From: Sipunculus nudus
Lineage: Eukaryota > Annelida > Sipuncula > Golfingiida > Sipunculidae
Direction: 5' to 3'
DNA length: 64,000 nucleotides
Assembly: GCA_026874595.1 (NCBI GenBank)
Contig: CM049307.1
Span: 37,242,862-37,306,861, forward strand
Positions 11,062-32,800 of the stretch are shown piece by piece (the stretch's first letter is position 1; each line of letters begins with the position of its first letter). The notes under the pieces were generated by a model. The model was not told the origin of the DNA, ran no database searches, and saw nothing but the letters and a program-made list of their open reading frames with translations. Position numbers and translations under genes: made by a program.

Positions 11062-11270
11062 ATGAGTGGATTAATAAAAACGAAAGGCCAGCTCTACACG
11101 GAGGAGCGAACGTGAGTCAGTACCACTATGTATTAAATATGAGAAATTATTTGTAAGATATATATTATACAAGTATGAATGCATGTGTATCATATGATGT
11201 ATTATATATAAACCTGTATCTAAAACAAGTTTAAATCTTGCCTCAAAAGCCAACGTAAATGTTTAAATTG

Positions 11271-11329
<59 letters not shown>

Positions 11330-11412
11330 ATTCTAACAACATTCACCTGATGATCGGGTCGCATCCCGTGAAACAGTCTGTAGTGAATTTACAGTGTTGT
11401 TTTTCTTCAGCG

Positions 11413-11475
<63 letters not shown>

Positions 11476-11606
11476 GCAGCATGTTCCACGAAACAGTGTA
11501 GTAGGAAAATGTATGACAAAAGTTGATTCCTCAATTCTTGTATAATTTTAAAGCTCTGGTCCTATACCAAATAACACTCTAGCAGTTGCTTATTGCAGAA
11601 AAAAGG

Positions 11607-11652
<46 letters not shown>

Positions 11653-14600
11653 TATATGTATATACATATATATATATATATATATAAAACACATTTGTAA
11701 ATATTATTATCAATATTATTATTAATATTATTAATCACACGTGAATGACAGATATACATTTTCCAGGCCAACCGATGGGGAAGTGTTTGAAATAGCGGAA
11801 AAGAGGGCGCCACTAACTAAGATCCAGATCGTACTGCTCAACTTGACCTATTTAGGTCTTAACGTCATGTTTCTGGTCCTCACGGTAGAAGGTTAGTTCT
11901 TTCATATACGTTTCAGTATAGCAACATCTCCAAACTGAGTGGCGAGCGTGCATGTGCTCTGTTTTGTCTATGGTGTTGTATGAATCACAGATTTCAAGTT
12001 TCAAATCTTCTATTCCTCCGGGTGTTTTCGATTTTACAAAGTTATTGATTTTACAAAAATATTTGATAACTGCAGGAATACCTAAATTGAGTAAATTATA
12101 GAACCATATCACTGGAATTAGTGTACGAAACAGCATGTATTACTTCCGGAGATGAACAGCTGCTTAATTGCTCTGAAATATTCCTGCAAAGCTGGACTTT
12201 CACAACATATGTTTGTGTGTGGTCTTAAAACTCTTTTTAGAAAAATAAAACAATATAAAGTTTGCTCGTTTCATCGTGTGACATCGGGTCTCACTAAAAA
12301 TTACATGTCCTCCATATATAGTATACAGCCACTATCAAGATTTTTTTTAGCACAAAACGTATTTATGTGAAATACTTTGACAATATCACCGTTTATAATA
12401 TTTGTCGTCCTTAGTAATTGAAAAAATCCTTAAAAATCAAAATATATAGACCTAAGTAAATATTTAACGACTTTACGACCCATTGGTCCAACAAAATATT
12501 AAAAAAATATCTCAGACTTTGGAATATGCGCGCAAAAAAGCTTTACAGGCGGAAAAAAAATATTACACTGTTCTAGGGAAACTAAAGGTCTTTAAACCGG
12601 CAGCACATTGACCCGTGTCTGTTGATCCAATGAGCTGTTAACCTGGCTGTTGGACAAATGGACAACCTCCTTAATATATTGCGAGAGTAAATTACCATAC
12701 ATTTCTCCATTAATTTTTCTCCATTATTACCGTTCCTTGTGAATAGGTATCCATTTAATTAACCTTCACAGCCTCAGCTTGTTTTTGCACGTTTCAGTTG
12801 TACCAACACAACTACAGAGTATGGTGGGTTCAGGTGCCAAAGGACGCTGGCTTGGAGGGATGGTGGCGGCTGGATCAGGTGAGAATATAATCCATTGCCC
12901 GTGAGCATTTGTATCACTTACTGTGCGATATTGGGTAAAAGGTATTCGCTTATAAAGTTCGGTCAATCAGATTAGACATTATAAATTAAATACTTAAGTC
13001 CACCTTTTGAAACACAAAATCCGCTTTATAATAAGATTATACGATTATCACAATAAGCAAGGAGTTAACCTGATAAAGGCTTCTAGTCCGAGATATTTTT
13101 ACAACATAATGAACACCAGATGACGCTAATTACCAAGCACGGAAAGTTTCTCCCGAAAATACAGATTATTAGGCCCCCTAAAAAGGTATGGTTCTCAGGC
13201 ACTGCCCGCGTCAATTTTAACCCCGCATCAAACCTTTTTATTTTGATTTTCATCTTTCAAGAAGATAAAATAATACAATTTTGATAAGACATTCTTTGTT
13301 TTGTAGTGCTTTTACCTGTTTGGCAAAAAAAAAATTGTTATTTTCATGCTCTTCTCTGATCATATGACATTTTTATCGAAACATACAAAGAAAGGTAAAA
13401 AAAAAAAAAAAAAAATAAAATATCGCCCGCCCGCACTGATTTCTGAATAAAGTGCCTGAGAACCATTCTTTTTTTAGCGCTATATATTTTCACTTTTTAT
13501 TCAAAGTGTTAACGTTTCTGACGGGCCCCCTGGTGGGAATGTGGAGCGACAGACTTGTGTCGAGGTTCGGTCAGCGGAGGCCTATCATGGTGGTCGCTAC
13601 CGGGATACTCTGGTCTGTAATTCATTCATGCCTGTTAAACAATTAAATGTAAACATGTAGAAATAAACCATTATTTTCCTACAACTATACATTAAATAAA
13701 AATATATAAATTTTAAAATATTTAAAAACATTTTTAAATTCTGAAAAAAAATGTGGATACTATTAACATTAACTTGATGCTCTTGAATATTGTATAAATC
13801 CTTTGGCGTAATGACGATGGTTCACTTGATCATCATATCCTATCAACAGATACTGTCACACGACTTTTCACATTTGCATCGTAGAAAAATAAATATTTTT
13901 TATTATTTATTTTGGACAGTGCGGGATTATTTGGGATGGCGTTCAGTGCCCCGAGAGTTGCCGTGTAGGTATTCTCTTTTATAACTTTCAAAAATAGACG
14001 CGACGGTGTGTATTAATTAGTGGATCAATACGCTATGCCTATACAAATCAGTAATTTATTTATACAAAATTAATGTTGCTTTTATATATACCTCCTTAGT
14101 AATACATAAGATGTCCGTTTAAAGCATAAGAAGCTGTGATGAATTAAAACAACTCTAGTTCCTTGGCCACGAGACCCTTGACTATGACACCTGGAGAGGC
14201 ACCAGATAGGAGACCCTGGGAGGCCCTAGCAAAGAGATAAAGGAGGCCCTAGCTAGGAGGAGATCTTAAACAGGGCCTATCTAGGAGACTTTAGAAGAGC
14301 CAGATTTCATAAGTTTTGCACCTATTAAACTAAAATGGAACGTGAAACATATTTAGCATTGATAATAAGAAATTAATGATCATAAGTATATTTACACGTT
14401 TTATTACGTTATCACAAAATAATATCAGTTTCACCTGCATTTATTAGAATTTTACATATTTCAAAAACATTGGTAGTTATATGCAGTTGTTTTGCTGTTT
14501 TAGATTCTTTATTTTTAATAGATTTCATTTTCGTAAATGATATCCTCTTTTTAATGCATCAGTAAAACGATATATACCATTGCAGTCAAAGGCCCGAGAA

Positions 14601-16743
14601 CATTACTGACGTGAGTAATATTGGTGAAGGGCAGAGCTCATATATTATTTTAGTCGTATCATTTATAGATATAGAAATGGGCGGTGGGGGAGAAAAAACT
14701 CAAGACCCTAACAATACATATCAATCAGTCCTAAAGTTTTCTTCTATGATCCGGTTTATATTTTTTCTGTTATATTCCATAATTCTTTATCGCACTATTC
14801 TCTGTATTGTGACAATAACAGGTTAGATAAAGTTGGACAAACTTGCAATTATAATAGTGTCTGTTTCGGTATTAACTATCGCATGTTGCTGCAATAAAAA
14901 ATGTTTTTAATTTTTTTTTGCCTACAAACATGGTTTTACTTTTTCCATCTTTATAAAGATGTAATAGGCTGTATACATAAATCTGGACTTTGACCTAATG
15001 AGTTAATTAGAAATTACGTCATGCAGACGTACGATTACTTGATTGCACACGTAATGCTGGATGCACCTTGCTGGGGTAAACCGTTCAATGTATGATCATC
15101 TTAGTTAAAAGAATAGTGTTTAATTACAAAAAAAATATACATTTAGAAGAAATTATGCCAATATATCTAAACGAAAAAGTGACTGAGACCCAATTAAAAA
15201 TTATTAAAAAAAGAATATAACTGTTTGTTTCATAGACCGTATATGAAGTGATCCTATTTCGTTCACAAAAGAAAAGTGTATGAATTCCTCTATAGTGTAA
15301 CGTGGACCTGGAAGCGAGGCGCTGCAGTCCCTACAGGAATCACTCCAGCCTCCCAATCATGCTACATAACGAGAAGTCACAGCTGTCACATCCAGGGGTA
15401 CTGTCACCAGAGAGAAGCAGAACGAGCTGGGACGTCCAGGATACCTTCAACGGAAATATAGGTACACGAAGAAATATGGTGTACGAAGAATTACAAATAT
15501 ATTTAGATATATAGGTATACGAATAAATAAAGGAATACGAGAAAATATATGTATATACGAGAAAACATATTAATTGTTCGAGGGAATAAGGGCATACAAG
15601 GAAATATATGTGCACGAGGAAACCCAGGTGTACGAAAAATTATGAGTAATTCGATGTTCAAGGAAATATAAGGGTACCATAAACTATAGGTAAACAGGGG
15701 CATATAGGTATATGACGAAAAATAAGGGCTCTAGGAAACATAGACATGCTTGAAAATATAGATGTACGAAGAAATGTAGATTTATTTTCATGTATTATAT
15801 GGTTATCTACATGAAATACATTGTTTAATATATTTTATTTACATTTTGATTATGATTGTTCTTATGCGGATAATAAGTATTTAAAATTTACAATTTATTG
15901 ACTTAGAATTAGTGCCGTTTTAAGGACACAACAGATAGAACTTTAAATAATACTGAATAAATTCAATAAACACATAGGCAAACTTTATTTCAGGCACTAT
16001 TTAAGATCACCAGTTTCTCAATGGTGACTGTAATTTTTCCTCACCAAACATGTATGTAAATAGCTATGTGCCTCTGACGTTCTTGTTTACCATGACGTTC
16101 TTTTTAATTATTTTACGTCTCATTCAGGTTTATTCATCACGTTCTACCTTCTGGTGACGACGAGTTTTGTTTGTGTTGCCGTGCCCTATAACGCCCTCAT
16201 CGCTGACAAGTCTCACCCGGACCAAAGAGGTAGGAGAACCGGCACTTTCTAAATTGTATCCATTTCCATGTTTTGTATTATTCCAGTGAATGAATGTTAA
16301 CAAATCCTGCATATTTAATATCTAAAAATAAATTCATTGGTGTTTACAATGTGGTCATTTATAACATCATGCAAAAGGTTCCATACAACATTTATAAGCT
16401 AACCCTTTATTGTTTTGTGAAAACACCATTCAGAATTTGCAGACGTTTAGTCTTGATCTAAGTATGCACGTGACACATTTACTTAATATCAATATTAAGT
16501 TAATTCCTAACTTTGTAATGATAGCAAGAACCTAGATTTATTTAAACATTAAGCATGGATTTCTTATTGTAGGGTTGAACTCCGGGATGATGGGGTTCAT
16601 GATTTTGTTTGGTAACATCACTGGGGCAGCCGTGGGGTTGTTCTTTCTTGTGAGTTATGAAACATTTGTCTTGCATGAGAGTCTTTTATTCTGAAACTAA
16701 AACCACTGGTTCCTACTGATATATATATATATATATATATATA

Positions 16744-16777
<34 letters not shown>

Positions 16778-16910
16778 CTCTGAAGAAAAACAACACTGTA
16801 AATTCACTACAGTCTGTTTCACGGGATGCGACCCGATCATTAGGTGAATGTTGTTAGAATGAAGCTAACGGCGTGGTTTGAAAAGCAAATGACAAATGCA
16901 AGAAGCATTT

Positions 16911-16953
<43 letters not shown>

Positions 16954-19828
16954 AATATATGGTTAAAAGTAAGGGTGGAAATGCTTCTTGCATTTGTTTT
17001 TTTTACTTTTCGCTGTGGATCTGTTCTCTCAGTTAACGATGGTAGAAGCATATAATAATTGCATTAATAATTATCTTTTTATGCGTCTGATGTGATAAAT
17101 GTAATCGGCATACAGGTCTGTCATATTTTTCAATCGGATTTTTCCAAAAAATAACCTTTGCTTATTTATAGGACTAGCTTTGTACCTTTTAGAAATTACC
17201 ATTGAAACGTTGATGCACTGTTCGACTGTTACCATTAGGTAAAGGGAAAGGTAATAATCGTATGACAGAGGACTTTTTATCTGTTTGAATCCTTCAGGAT
17301 TTATGTGATGGGAAAGAGAACTGCAGGCACACAGTGATTATATTTACCTATTTGAATGACAAAGTCTGAATTTACATAAATTGTACATCTTCCTTTTCAG
17401 TTAAGGGTTCAAATAACATAAATCTTTGGATAATGTGAAGGTCATGGATGATGTATAGGCCTAGGTCATTTTCAGAACATTTCACATTGTTAAAACTGAA
17501 AAGATGATCAGAAACAGTTTATATTAACAGGATATGGGTGTTCTCGGCGCCTACAGCTGTGTGGTTGTACTCCTGCTCGCCTGCGTCCTCATCACTGTCT
17601 TCTCAACACCAGAATCCCCCAGCAAACCGGTGTTCGAACCTGTCGGTAGGTTTATAATCTTGGGCTTGACCCCGGCAGCAGTTCCATTAGCTACAGGCCT
17701 GTAACGCAAACCATTCCTTATTTAATTGTTCTTTCTTGTAAGCATTACAGACCCTGAGGTGGAGAGTTTACCCTCTAAAGCTTGGTCAGATCTGACCAAA
17801 GTGGTTCAGACCATGATATTCAGCGTTCGGCGTGAGGACATCCAACAATCCCTACATATTATGCATAATACAGTTGTGCTGACTCAGTTGGGATATAAAT
17901 TGTAACGTAATCTTCACTATATATGTATGAAAATATTGGCACCTACCCTCAAGAAAACTAGATAATTGTTGCCGCCATCGGCTCTTGTTAACAGACTGGC
18001 AAGGCACGCTCGGAAAGCTAAGGAGGGTCTTTTCTCGTGCGACGTCATGGGGATCTATGAGGGAACCACCATCTATCGGGTATTATAAGGTAGTTTACAT
18101 AGACCCCCCTTTTAATTTGCATGAGATTCCCGTTTGGGGTTGCGTCGAATCAAAGGGAAAACTCTCCCCCACAGGTGTTCGGATTCCATTCCTGAAAGGA
18201 GTCTGAATGTTCGGGCTACAGTTCATTCTTATGATCTTGTATTATGTAAATTGAATAGGTCGCTCAGGATATGCAACACATTGCCGCTTGAGCGTGCAAT
18301 AAAAATGACTGACTGGTGAATGACTGTTTTATACAAATTGACATAAACATAAACATAAAATCAATGAACCGCTCGTGTTCGCTAATTTTCAGGTTGGAAA
18401 ACAATATTTCTAGGATTCTGGGAACCTCTCAAAGGTAAGAAATCAATGTTCTTGTCTGAAATTGGTGAATGAGTACATACATAAGACTGGTGTAAGGAAT
18501 GATAATGCCTTTACACTTTCTGTTGTGGAAGGTTTCTGCAAGGGACAGTCATCAGAGTTTATCAAGAGTATAAGTATAATGAACATTGCGATAACAATGC
18601 CTGTAAGGTAATGAGTACACTGTAGGATATATGTTGCTGACAACTCTGAAAGAATTCACAAAACAATATTACAAACCCCTAAAAAATAAGGTTAAAGGGT
18701 AAATATAAGAAAAAATCTGATTCCAAAGCCATATTCCTAGAAGTAATTACTTTAACTATGAGTGTATGTAGCTTGATTTAGATGTTTCGGTACAGAAATA
18801 TATTTTCTTCCACATAAGGGCAGAAAGTAATTACTTTTATGAACATTTTTACCCTCAGAACATAACTTCCGGTGGGTGTTCTTCACGAGGTTCCTGATGC
18901 AGCAAGGAGTGTCAACAGTCGTGGGGTAGGTCAGCATAATATAAGATCTGTTATCTCCACCAGAGGTCGCTGTGGTGCTCTCGTTTTATCACTATCGGAC
19001 AGTTTCTAATTTACGTAGAATGTACTTCAAGATGACATACCATCTTAAATGTTCAGCCAGATTGTCTAATATTCAGCCAAGGATGTATTATCGAGTATAT
19101 ATTCCTTGTAATATTAGGTAATTTTCAAACGGGGAAATGTACGTAATTTCACACACCGAACGTGCATGTTGGCCATCGGGAACACTATCAGGTGCATTGT
19201 GAAAGAAAAGATAATTGTCAGGCTATAGATTGAGAATACAACTATAGAAGTCTGCTGTGAAATAAACAACATGATGAAGAAAAAAACATGTATCCATGCA
19301 CTATGTTGCCATAAACAGGTTTAAAACGACTAATATTTTTTTAGAAAGCGAAAGTGCTATTTATTCCAGTAAGCTAAACTGATAACAATTGTGGACAAAA
19401 GATTGATTGAGAGATTGGAAGTCGAGAAATGCTAATAAACGCACCCTTGACCGGGGCCTGGCATTTTTTTAGTGTCTCAAACTGCAAAGCTTATAGTCAA
19501 CTCTCTGTACGTGTGCCGAAAACATCCATTTAAAATAAATGACTTAACTTAACGCATTATACTTCATTTCACACTTTGTACAATCATGTTTATCTGAAAA
19601 GGTCGCAAAAACATATTAATAGTATATAAATTACCGATGATTCCTTCCGTTTTCTTCAGCTTCCTGGAGTACTGGCTGTCAGACATGGTGACCCTCCCGC
19701 TCTGCTGGTCCCCTCAGAGGTCTGTCGCCATGATGCTCCTGCCGCTGCTTGGTACTGCCGCTATCAGGCAAGTATAACCTGTACACAAAATTAAAGCTGG
19801 ACAACATGTTTATAAATATATAAATATA

Positions 19829-30072: not shown

Positions 30073-31475
30073 ACTGAGTGATACCCAGTGAACACTCACT
30101 GAGCATGTTGATACCCAGTTAACACTCACTGTGCTTGTTGATACTCAGGAAACACTAACTGTACTTGTTGATACCCAATGAACACCCTCTGAGCATGTGG
30201 ATACCCTGTGAACATTCACTGTACTTGTTGATACTCCGTGAATACTCACTGTACTCACTGATACCCAGTGAACACTCACTGTACTCAATGATACCCAGTT
30301 AACACTCACTGTACTTAATGATACCCAGTGAACACTCACTGTACATGTTGATACCGAGTGGACACTCACTGTACTCACTGATACTGAGTGAACAGTCACA
30401 ATACTCGCTGATACCCAGTGAACACTCACTGAGCATGTTGATCCTCAATGAACACTCACTGTACTCAATGATACCCACTGAACAGTCATTATACTCACTG
30501 ATACCAAGTGAACACTCACTGTACTCACTGATACCGAGCTAACACTCACTGAGCATGTTGATACTCAGTGAACTGTCACTGTACTTATTGATACTCAGTA
30601 AACTTTCATTGTACTTGTTAATAGTGAACACTCACTGTAGTTTTTGATACTCAGTGAATTCTCACTGTACTCACTGATACCCAGTGAACACTCACTGTAT
30701 TCACTAATACCCAGTGAACACTCACTTTACTCACTGATACCCAGTGAACACTAACTGAGCATGTTGATACCCAGTGAACACTTACTGAGCATGTTAATAC
30801 CAAGTGAACACTCTCTGAGCATGTTGATACCCAGTATACACTTACTGAGCATGTTTATACCCAATGAACACTCACTGAGCATGTTGATACCCAGTGAACA
30901 CTCACTGTACTTTTTGATACTCAATGAACACTCACTGAGCATGTTGATACCCAGTGAACACTCACTGTACTTTTTGATACTCAATGAACACTCACTGTAT
31001 TCACTGATACCTAGTGAACACTCACTGTACTCACTGATACCCAGTGAACACTCGCTTTACTCACTGATACCCAGTGAACAGTAACTATACTTGCTGATAC
31101 CCAGTGAACACTCGCTGGGCATCTTTATACCCCGTGAACACTGCCTGTACTTGTTGATACTCAATGAACACTCACTGTTCTCACTGATACCCAGTGAACA
31201 CTCACTGTACCTAATGATACCCAGTGAACACTCACTGTACTCACTGATACCCAGTGAATTCTCACTGAGCATGTTGATACCCAATGAACATTCATCAAGC
31301 ACACTGACGAACAGTGAACACTCACCAAACATTCTGAAACACAGCGATCACTCCCTGTGTTTGTTGATACCAAGTGGACACTCATACAGGCAGTACTTGT
31401 TTATACCCAATGATCCCTCACAGTACTTGTTGATACCCAGTGATCCCTCACAGTACTTTTGATACTAAGTGATCA
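30073..31475 (+). repeat. 30-bp minisatellite
   Basis: About 46 units with consensus TGATACCCAGTGAACACTCACTGTACTCAC (20 bases TGATACCCAGTGAACACTCA, then CTGTACTCAC). Two main variants differ in the last third (GTACTCAC versus GAGCATGT). Each unit holds the inverted pair CAGTGA/TCACTG. Since 30 is a multiple of three, open frames run along both strands as 10-residue repeats. Units adjoin without spacers. Confidence 0.95.
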
Positions 31476-32800
31476 CTTACTGTAAATTATGTAGCTAATT
31501 GATCAATCACTGTGCATATGTTGTTACAGAGTATTCATACACTGTGCATGTGATTACTCAGTGATCATTAAGCCTGTTACTTAGTCATCAATCACTCAAT
31601 GATTACTCACTATACAGGTTGAACTCAATGATCACTTAATGAACTCATTCCATACAGTGATCATTTACTATACTTATTGCTCAGTGATTGTTAACTGTAT
31701 ACGTTGATTCTCAGGGATCACTCGCTGTATAAGTTGATACTCAGTGATCACTCACTGTATATGATGTTACTCATTGATCAGTCACTGTGCATATGTTGTT
31801 ACAAAGTATTCATCCACTGTGTATGTCATTACTGAGTGATCATTTAGCATGTTACTTAGTCATCATTCACTTAATGATTACTCACTATACAGTTTGATAC
31901 TCAATGATCACTCAATGCACTCATTCTGTACAGAGTGATAATTTACTATACTTATTTCTCAATGAATACTACTTGTATACTTTGATTCTCACAGATCATC
32001 ACTGTATAACTTGATACTCGATGATGTTACTAGCGATCACCTACCTCACAATTCACCGAGTGATCATTCACTATACATTTTACCTGATGATTTTTTACTT
32101 TATGCATCCGTCACTCACCGTATATTTTAGAACTCGGTGACCATTCACTATGATGTTACTCAGTGATCACTTCCTTCATATGTTACTCAGTTATCATTCA
32201 CTGTACATGCTTTTGCTAAGTGATCAGTTACAGTGTGCTTTGTTACCCAGTTTTTATCCTTTATACATGTTACTCAACAGTCATTCAATGTACATGTTGC
32301 TACTTAGTAATCAGTCATTGAATATGCTACTTACTCATTATTAACTGTAGATATTAGGCATATTCAGTGATCACTCACATAACATGTTACTTAGTGATTA
32401 TTCACTGTGCATATTGTTACTCATTAATCACTCACTGTACATGCTAGAATCATGTACCAATAGCCATATTGGACCATTGCACAGAGACAGAGAACAAGAA
32501 AGGTTGGGGATCCCTGTTAGCTTAGTGGTAGAGCAGATGACCAGCAATCAGAGGGTCATGGGTTTGATTTCCATACAGGGATTCGCCCTTTTTCAGCGTC
32601 TTCATTTTTTTCTATATCACTGGACATGCTAATAAATGATATGCAGTTATCATTTTTATCAGTTATTCAGTGATTGTTCACTATGCATATTACTCAGTGA
32701 TCACTAAATCTACATGTTGTTACTCAATGACCAATAACTGAGCACATTTCTCAGTGATCACTCACTGTACTGTTTCTCAGTGGTCGACATTGTGACAGTT
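31476..32800 (+). repeat. Degenerate minisatellite with a 275-bp higher-order repeat
   Basis: The 30-bp array decays into looser units around TACTCAGTGATCACTCACTGTA. A block of about 245 bp starting at 31500 is repeated with a 275-bp period (the phrase TGTGCATATGTTGTTACA is at 31511 and 31786), so a multi-unit segment was duplicated. A tRNA-like insert interrupts the array at 32511. Confidence 0.8.
32511..32581 (+). ncRNA. tRNA-like sequence (SINE head or tRNA pseudogene)
   Basis: 71 nt that fold as a tRNA. A perfect 7-bp acceptor stem pairs TCCCTGT (32511-32517) with ACAGGGA (32575-32581). The D arm is GCTTAGTGGTAGAGC (polymerase III box A), and the T arm ATGGG-TTTGATT-TCCAT holds a box B-like GGTTTGATTTC. 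The anticodon stem keeps only three pairs and the loop is CCAGCAA, with C where position 33 is normally T. The anticodon would be AGC. The weak anticodon arm argues against a working tRNA. A SINE head or pseudogene is more likely, and TTTTT follows at about 32590. Confidence 0.6.

Follow-up and report, generated by a model that had tools for sequence, protein, structure and literature searches.

A motif with the conserved parts of a type I hammerhead ribozyme lies in an intron of a transporter gene of Sipunculus nudus, and the question that this locus raises is whether the motif serves the gene, belongs to a small circular-RNA-producing repeat or was left there by a mobile element. The motif occurs in a stretch of 64,000 nucleotides of contig CM049307.1, hereafter referred to as the window. 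An initial interpretation made from the letters of the window (hereafter the sequence-only reading) had proposed an intact hammerhead core and had associated the motif with metazoan retrozymes and Penelope-like elements (PLEs).

All the hammerhead parts and the stem pairings named in the sequence-only reading are present on direct reading at 11335-11401 (Table 1). The motif consists of three pairable helices, an open stem I of 6+6 bp, a stem II of 4 bp and a stem III of 3 bp, and carries the type I core elements CUGANGA ... GAA, the A15.1-U16.1 pair and a UH cleavage site; the type I topology and the short stem III are likewise supported by the sequence reading. A descriptor specifying stem I of at least 5 bp, CUGANGA, stem II of at least 3 bp, GAA, stem III of at least 3 bp with A15.1-U16.1, and UH, gave one match in the 64-kb window (11335-11401) and none in 150 first-order Markov sequences of 64 kb, which bears out the earlier statement that a chance origin is unlikely. 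The proposed location within a transporter intron was also borne out, with the copy in sense orientation and the reading frame open across the intron; the peptide joined from the two exons of Table 1 and further candidate exons matched MFS_1 with an E-value of 4.1e-14. The insertion containing the motif runs from the A of ATTCTAAC, the presumed transcript start, to CAGCGT, the presumed ribozyme-end start of reverse transcription. A second copy in the window, 97.5% identical to the first over 80 nt by mismatch search and BLAST, probably sits antisense in a later intron of the same MFS gene, as judged from the candidate exons. The sequence-only reading mentions neither this copy nor the high copy number of the motif. 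Beside it, at 16887-17002, a 58-nt inverted repeat (76% complementary, with about 20 nt of the arms perfect) encloses a TA array, as if the insertion had copied host flank in reverse.

Table 1. Features of the two ribozyme copies and their surroundings in the window
Feature	Position	Strand	Remark
Coding exon 1, MFS transporter gene	11062..11111	+	candidate exon, MFS_1 match
Intron GT..AG with ribozyme copy in sense orientation	11112..11766	+	frame open across intron
(TA)27 array	11273..11327	.	upstream part of presumed target microsatellite
Extra G ahead of the element's first A	11329	+	C in the element at this position; perhaps an untemplated base derived from the cap
84-nt PLE-derived insertion	11330..11413	+	boundaries common to other copies; flanked on either side by (TA)n
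Type I hammerhead motif, intact core	11335..11401	+	direct reading, descriptor and chance test
AACAAC	11335-11340	+	stem I outer strand, pairs with GTTGTT 11396-11401
ATTCAC	11341-11346	+	stem I inner strand, pairs with GTGAAT 11383-11388
CTGATGA core	11347-11353	+	direct reading
T at 10.1	11354	+	apposed to T at 11.1, 11369
Stem II CGGG / CCCG	11355-11358 / 11365-11368	+	4 bp
TCGCAT	11359-11364	+	between CGGG and CCCG
GAA core	11370-11372	+	direct reading
Stem III ACA / TGT	11373-11375 / 11379-11381	+	3 bp
GTC	11376-11378	+	between ACA and TGT
A17	11382	+	putative cleavage site 11382/11383
TTACAGT	11389-11395	+	7-nt bulge of stem I
(TA)30 array	11414..11473	.	downstream part of presumed target microsatellite
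Coding exon 2, MFS transporter gene	11767..11891	+	candidate exon, MFS_1 match
(TA)n	16719..16776	.	adjoins 3' end of second copy
Second copy, 80-nt ribozyme block	16780..16859	-	core broken at G5 (CTAATGA)
27 nt of PLE region upstream of ribozyme block, retained	16860..16886	-	second copy

The covariance-model check put forward by the sequence-only reading failed: no Rfam hammerhead match was obtained, even at E 10. At the gathering threshold the sole Rfam match in the whole window was one tRNA, and no hammerhead was reported in the family loci L045, L028 and L017; at E-values up to 10, the hammerhead was absent among the 43 matches on 660 nt, mostly miRNA families on TA repeats, and an 83-nt piece matched no family at all. 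A covariance-model match is a detection test for hammerheads and not their definition. Among the predicted monomer folds of the window copy, the hammerhead (-10.6 kcal/mol) is worse by 5.6 kcal/mol than the MFE fold (-16.2 kcal/mol), in which the outer stem I and stem II are retained while the inner stem I and stem III are replaced. The Rfam results and the predicted thermodynamics together speak against easy monomeric hammerhead folding of this copy. Stem III (ACAG-W-CTGT) is nearly self-complementary and would suit cleavage as a dimer, though the predicted energies do not favour one: the hammerhead dimer (-33.7 kcal/mol) is not the best dimer (-41.4 kcal/mol), and is therefore not favoured by energy alone. 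Dimer cleavage of PLE hammerheads is said to have been described by Lunse in 2017. The window copy is referred to here as a putative ribozyme whose motif is intact in sequence.

The genome of 1.43 Gb in 153 contigs was searched for further copies. A 35-mer with up to 3 mismatches had 3,464 matches (1,772 + 1,692) and the exact 30-nt core 1,716 (890 + 826), with none for the reversed control in either case; the window motif is a member of a dispersed repeat family with 3,464 near-copies. In natural hammerheads stem II is usually closed by a G10.1-C11.1 pair, a feature that is common and not strictly defining. The family lacks this pair and carries U-U instead: T occupies both 10.1 and 11.1 in 89 of the 90 distinct copies fetched (a sample partly selected by the core), and the apposition is therefore a family trait and not decay. 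The T-T apposition, described earlier as unusual, is so in comparison with the usual G10.1-C11.1 pair, and not as an oddity of the window copy. The base at H17 and that in loop I are exchanged jointly between two subfamilies (T/A 46, A/T 31, T/T 8, other 5; n=90). The lower variability of the core was not counted as evidence, because most copies were fetched via the core sequence. An alternative hairpin, CUGU(A/U)-GUGAAUU-(U/A)ACAG, was considered and rejected, its covariation being partial.

Other hammerhead-like sequences were also encountered in the genome. A pattern in which 10.1 is not T gave 40 matches (control 3), some of them belonging to other families, and families with G10.1-C11.1 and different stem II sequences gave 52 (control 2). 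At least three further hammerhead-like families with G10.1-C11.1, stem II sequences of their own and a near-palindromic stem III (for example L159 and L160) were observed; none of the five other-family loci L158-L162 reached the Rfam gathering score. One of these loci (C17:18283277-18283841, L158) is a minisatellite of 48-bp units, most of which contain the hammerhead-like core CTGATGAGTGCCGTACAACGGTACGAAACTAATTAG.

The longer copies of the family extend about 1 kb or more upstream of the motif, with the 5' side cut at varying points. In L028, among the longest, the sequence upstream of the motif includes an ORF end that reads like the C-terminus of a Penelope endonuclease. A genome search with this ORF end, in which 150 of the 2,136 candidates were scored, yielded many matches with a 713-aa frame and two with longer ones, and the matches form tandem arrays with a spacing of about 2.93 kb. 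In the arrays L045 and L046, the ribozyme block and a tail of about 70 nt lie between successive ORFs; in L045 the block begins at position 2037, and the next ORF has its first ATG at 2268. The PLE mention of the sequence-only reading is supported, the motif lying between successive ORFs of tandem PLE units of about 2.93 kb. The family displays the features of PLEs, namely tandem units with pseudo-LTRs and a hammerhead in the pseudo-LTR, along with the frequent features of an optional tail, inverted pLTRs and AT-rich targets. Domain matches of the protein were weak: a 286-aa RT piece matched RVT_1 with E=0.0023, below the gathering score, and a PHROG polymerase with E=0.0013, no Pfam GIY-YIG match was found in the ORF, the NCBIfam search of the ORF gave chance matches alone and the PDB search no meaningful match, with one chance match at E=0.57. 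A YIG..R..H motif follows a Cys-rich linker by eye, and this motif, DFYPSI and YRDDG are ones that we take to be of PLE type. In view of the weak domain matches, the assignment rests on the architecture, the motifs recognised by eye and the end structures of the copies, and a PLE protein would be the best fit.

The arrays can be extensive. In a long one at C17:42719197-42813023, the 713-aa frame occurs in 22 of 30 among the matches listed, and at C12:49440263-49514052 the PLE matches spaced by about 2.93 kb form two arrays in opposite directions. A cluster on C9 with copies spaced by about 4.17 kb was rejected as tandem PLEs, since it proved to be host sequence that is duplicated and includes a glycosyltransferase-like exon; at L031:1-10000, a tandem duplication of about 4.17 kb contains a ribozyme copy and an exon reading like UDP-glycosyltransferase. 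One pattern scan of viral contigs found nothing.

These observations bear on what the window copy is. That it merely resembles a hammerhead by accident is hardly credible; the lack of an Rfam hammerhead match would agree with it, but none of the 150 simulated windows matched the descriptor, so that as a statement about sequence it is already contradicted, and other families of the same genome share the architecture with different stem II sequences. The retrozyme reading, by which the motif would belong to a non-autonomous tandem repeat of 150-450 bp whose hammerheads yield small circular RNAs, draws on the type I fold with short stem III in an animal-type genome and on the type I hammerhead retrozymes published (PMC7229834, available part). 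It is nevertheless very improbable, and the sequence-only reading did not hold in this respect: the tandem unit of the family is about 2.93 kb long and coding, its intact ORFs being 713 aa long, whereas the window copy is single, outside any tandem repeat and, at 84 nt, almost wholly ribozyme. The suggestion that circular RNAs could arise here fares no better, as there is one sense copy in the intron and the other window copy is antisense and broken in its core; a circle from a lone sense copy should not be expected. A ribozyme selected by the host for control of the splicing or the level of the transporter mRNA would be compatible with the sense orientation and the intact core within intron 1 of an MFS gene; against it, the boundaries and the sequence are common to thousands of dispersed copies, and the nearby second copy has neither the orientation nor the core, which makes such selection very unlikely. 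Most probably the motif is not a retrozyme, nor does it stand alone as a ribozyme of the intron; the intronic copy most likely represents mobile-element debris with an intact motif, ordinary for the transporter gene and without a host role.

The ends of the copies provide insights into how they were inserted. The first 30 exact-core matches on contig C1 (L048-L077, of 1,716), which were not chosen by their flanks, end on the 3' side at the ribozyme end (19), at the tail end (8) or run into the next unit (3). Copies of the first kind usually finish ...CTTCAGAGT and those of the second ...CTACCTTC, about 62 nt farther on. A (TA)n run of at least five units occurs within 45 nt of the 3' end in 26 of the 27 copies that end at one of these two points, the exception being L050, compared with a background of 2.5% of random 53-nt stretches of the window. 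On the 5' side, 12 of the 30 begin within -5..+3 of TTCTAAC, with other PLE sequence preceding in one of them (L048), 14 begin upstream and 4 inside the ribozyme. A second sample comprised the first 20 tail matches on C3 out of 493 exact tail matches. Twelve of these tail-bearing copies, as read by eye, have a head-to-head partner, and no partner carries a second tail. Of the 12 partners, 11 finish at the ribozyme end, and (TA)n of at least five units lies right there in 9. L079, L085, L090 and L096 were not counted as partnered, since what matched was a self-complementary stretch within the sense ribozyme. No evidence of an in-vivo cleavage footprint was obtained in this sample, where one copy of the 20 (L078) has its first base exactly at the cleavage site, with GTGAAT.

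Many copies start at the A of ATTCTAAC, often with a G before it although the element has C. Genome-wide, the base before ATTCTAACM... is G in 198 cases, T in 102 and A in 58, the element's own C being left out. In fetched loci, which were the first listed on a few contigs and not a random sample, the junction is with host DNA in 20/40 for G, 8/10 for T and 4/10 for A, and the other junctions consist of inverted PLE pieces, end in GTTAG or are native sequence that has mutated; three loci with G (L105, L107, L142) that hold inverted tail or ribozyme pieces were not counted as host. Scaled accordingly, host junctions number about 99 for G, 82 for T and 23 for A, so that G accounts for roughly half and not all. 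Four of the G host junctions (L111-L114) are seemingly one duplicated locus and a further one (L149) is by eye perhaps a decayed inverted piece; allowing for these, 16 of 37 remain, or about 86 G when scaled. Half of the G count is not evidence, and the remaining G still exceeds expectation for AT-rich target DNA. The recount lowers that number and not the overall odds, which depend chiefly on copy number, architecture and ends. An extra 5' G is usually read as the product of reverse transcription through the cap, and TTCATTCT fits an initiator-like consensus. The start at ATTCTAAC with the extra G suggests that the template was a capped RNA beginning at the ribozyme.

Two aspects of insertion admit other explanations. 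The (TA)n flanks might have been made by the element, through slippage of reverse transcription on its GTTATA end, instead of being its target, given that the element reads GTTATA at the ribozyme end and that (TA)n adjoins 26 of 27 3' ends. However, the window copy and other partnerless copies (L049, L059, L063, L071, L075) also have (TA)n on the 5' side, where 3'-end slippage does not account for it, 13 of the 20 host junctions with G have a TA run within 25 nt, and tail-end copies adjoin (TA)n although the tail finishes CTACCTTC; we regard element-made flanks as improbable. The head-to-head copies, in turn, might have arisen by self-priming on antisense templates and not by two-strand priming on sense RNA. 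Palindrome-like junctions ending GTTAG before ATTCTAAC are found in 10 of the 40 loci with G and are in keeping with such self-priming, for which a model is in print for the A. vaga Penelope (PMC3846280, in the part available). The partnered tail copies, however, end at the tail on one side and at the ribozyme end on the other (11/12), 9 of the 12 partners directly adjoin (TA)n of at least five units, several junctions are truncated or contain filler, and the extra G found 5' on the sense strand favours a capped RNA of sense orientation. Antisense self-priming is therefore rather unlikely.

The explanation that we consider highly probable as a whole is that a PLE inserted the window copy at (TA)n by an internal start of reverse transcription, with no role for the copy in the host. 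Transcription would start at the A of ATTCTAAC in the repeat, so that the ribozyme would take up roughly 70 nt at the beginning of a capped RNA whose order would be ribozyme, tail, leader, ORF and next repeat. The enzyme of the element would cut (TA)n DNA, and reverse transcription may then begin within the RNA, at either the ribozyme end or the tail end; one cut strand or both may prime it, and head-to-head copies would result where both do so. Where priming takes place at the 5'-proximal ribozyme and the copy extends as far as the cap, a naked 84-nt insert with a cap-derived extra G would be left, as in the window copy; other naked ribozyme inserts are L006, L007, L056, L059, L060, L064 and L071. 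The templates of copies with the whole ribozyme would have been uncleaved in it. The ribozyme probably serves the element, either in RNA processing or as a structure that sets the start of reverse transcription, and perhaps acts as a dimer through its ACAG-W-CTGT stem III. A more specific proposal, which is tentative, is that a hammerhead at the cap site and the same fold in the downstream repeat, where it would mark the start of reverse transcription, might form a switch between translation or decay and retrotransposition, the whole copies deriving from uncut capped RNA. With the hammerhead at the cap site, self-cleavage would remove the cap and about the first 53 nt of the mRNA. If this switch exists, a lone ribozyme of 84 nt would be the smallest mobile unit, spread through TA microsatellites.

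Several published systems share parts of this organisation. The hammerheads of pseudo-LTR PLEs, in the available parts of the reviews PMC6155905 and PMC7761336, resemble those of the family in being of type I with a short or missing stem III and in lying in the repeated region of tandem elements, with dimeric use proposed; the family differs from that account in its 3-bp stem III, 7-nt stem I bulge and U-U at 10.1/11.1, and in a motif that begins at the inferred transcript start. PAc, the Poseidon element of Anolis carolinensis (PMC11167929), shares with the family the tandem units, an AT-rich target, a hammerhead near the ORF start and an optional tail set by two internal start sites of reverse transcription. 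In vitro, its reverse transcription starts internally, both strands are cut and extended, and the HHR is protein-assisted; unprocessed RNA is the main PAc substrate in vitro, a likeness to the uncut template inferred for the family (PMC11167929). The ORF of PAc begins at stem II of the hammerhead, whereas in the family (L045) some 230 nt separate the start of the ribozyme block from the first ATG that follows it, and the presumed target of the family, unlike that of PAc, is a (TA)n microsatellite. The part of PMC3846280 available describes a PLE whose targets are AT-rich and in which one of the two inverted pLTRs may carry a tail; Pen2a_Av of Adineta vaga has, like the family, inverted head-to-head pLTRs, a one-sided tail and palindromic junctions, while the family differs from that description by thousands of copies, many of them 5'-shortened and part of them with an extra sense 5' G. 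Metazoan retrozymes also carry type I hammerheads in repeats of animal genomes, but the family is not a small non-coding tandem repeat as they are in the sections of PMC7229834 available. Terminons, as far as the accessible text of PMC6431247 describes them, have a ribozyme near the 3' end of the element, adjoining the sequence that meets the target, as in the family; they are associated with telomeric repeats and the family with (TA)n arrays, and the family ORF, unlike theirs, seems by eye to retain an endonuclease-like domain. Among titles and abstracts, no account of this family or of a (TA)n-targeting hammerhead PLE was found; Cervera and de la Pena 2014, Craig et al. 2021 and Lunse et al. 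2017 may bear on it.

The route by which PLEs insert and the purpose of their conserved hammerhead are unsettled. The choice between sense and antisense template is left open for PLEs in the part of PMC3846280 available, and the role of PLE ribozymes is called a mystery in that of PMC7761336. The ends of the thousands of copies constitute a statistical record: the starts of reverse transcription are fixed, the 5' start is fixed too and often preceded by an added G, two-sided structures occur, and there is a strong preference for (TA)n. With this record, the proposal of a sense, capped and uncut template can be put to the test, as can the function of the ribozyme, and the family thereby offers rich material for the study of PLE biology.

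Elsewhere in the window, a 220-bp sequence is present twice with 98% identity at 2099-2544, a tandem array of about 47 copies of a 30-bp unit, TGATACCCAGTGAACACTCACTGTACTTGT, occupies 30079-31484, and a tRNA gene was predicted by Rfam at 32511-32582 with 43.3 bits.
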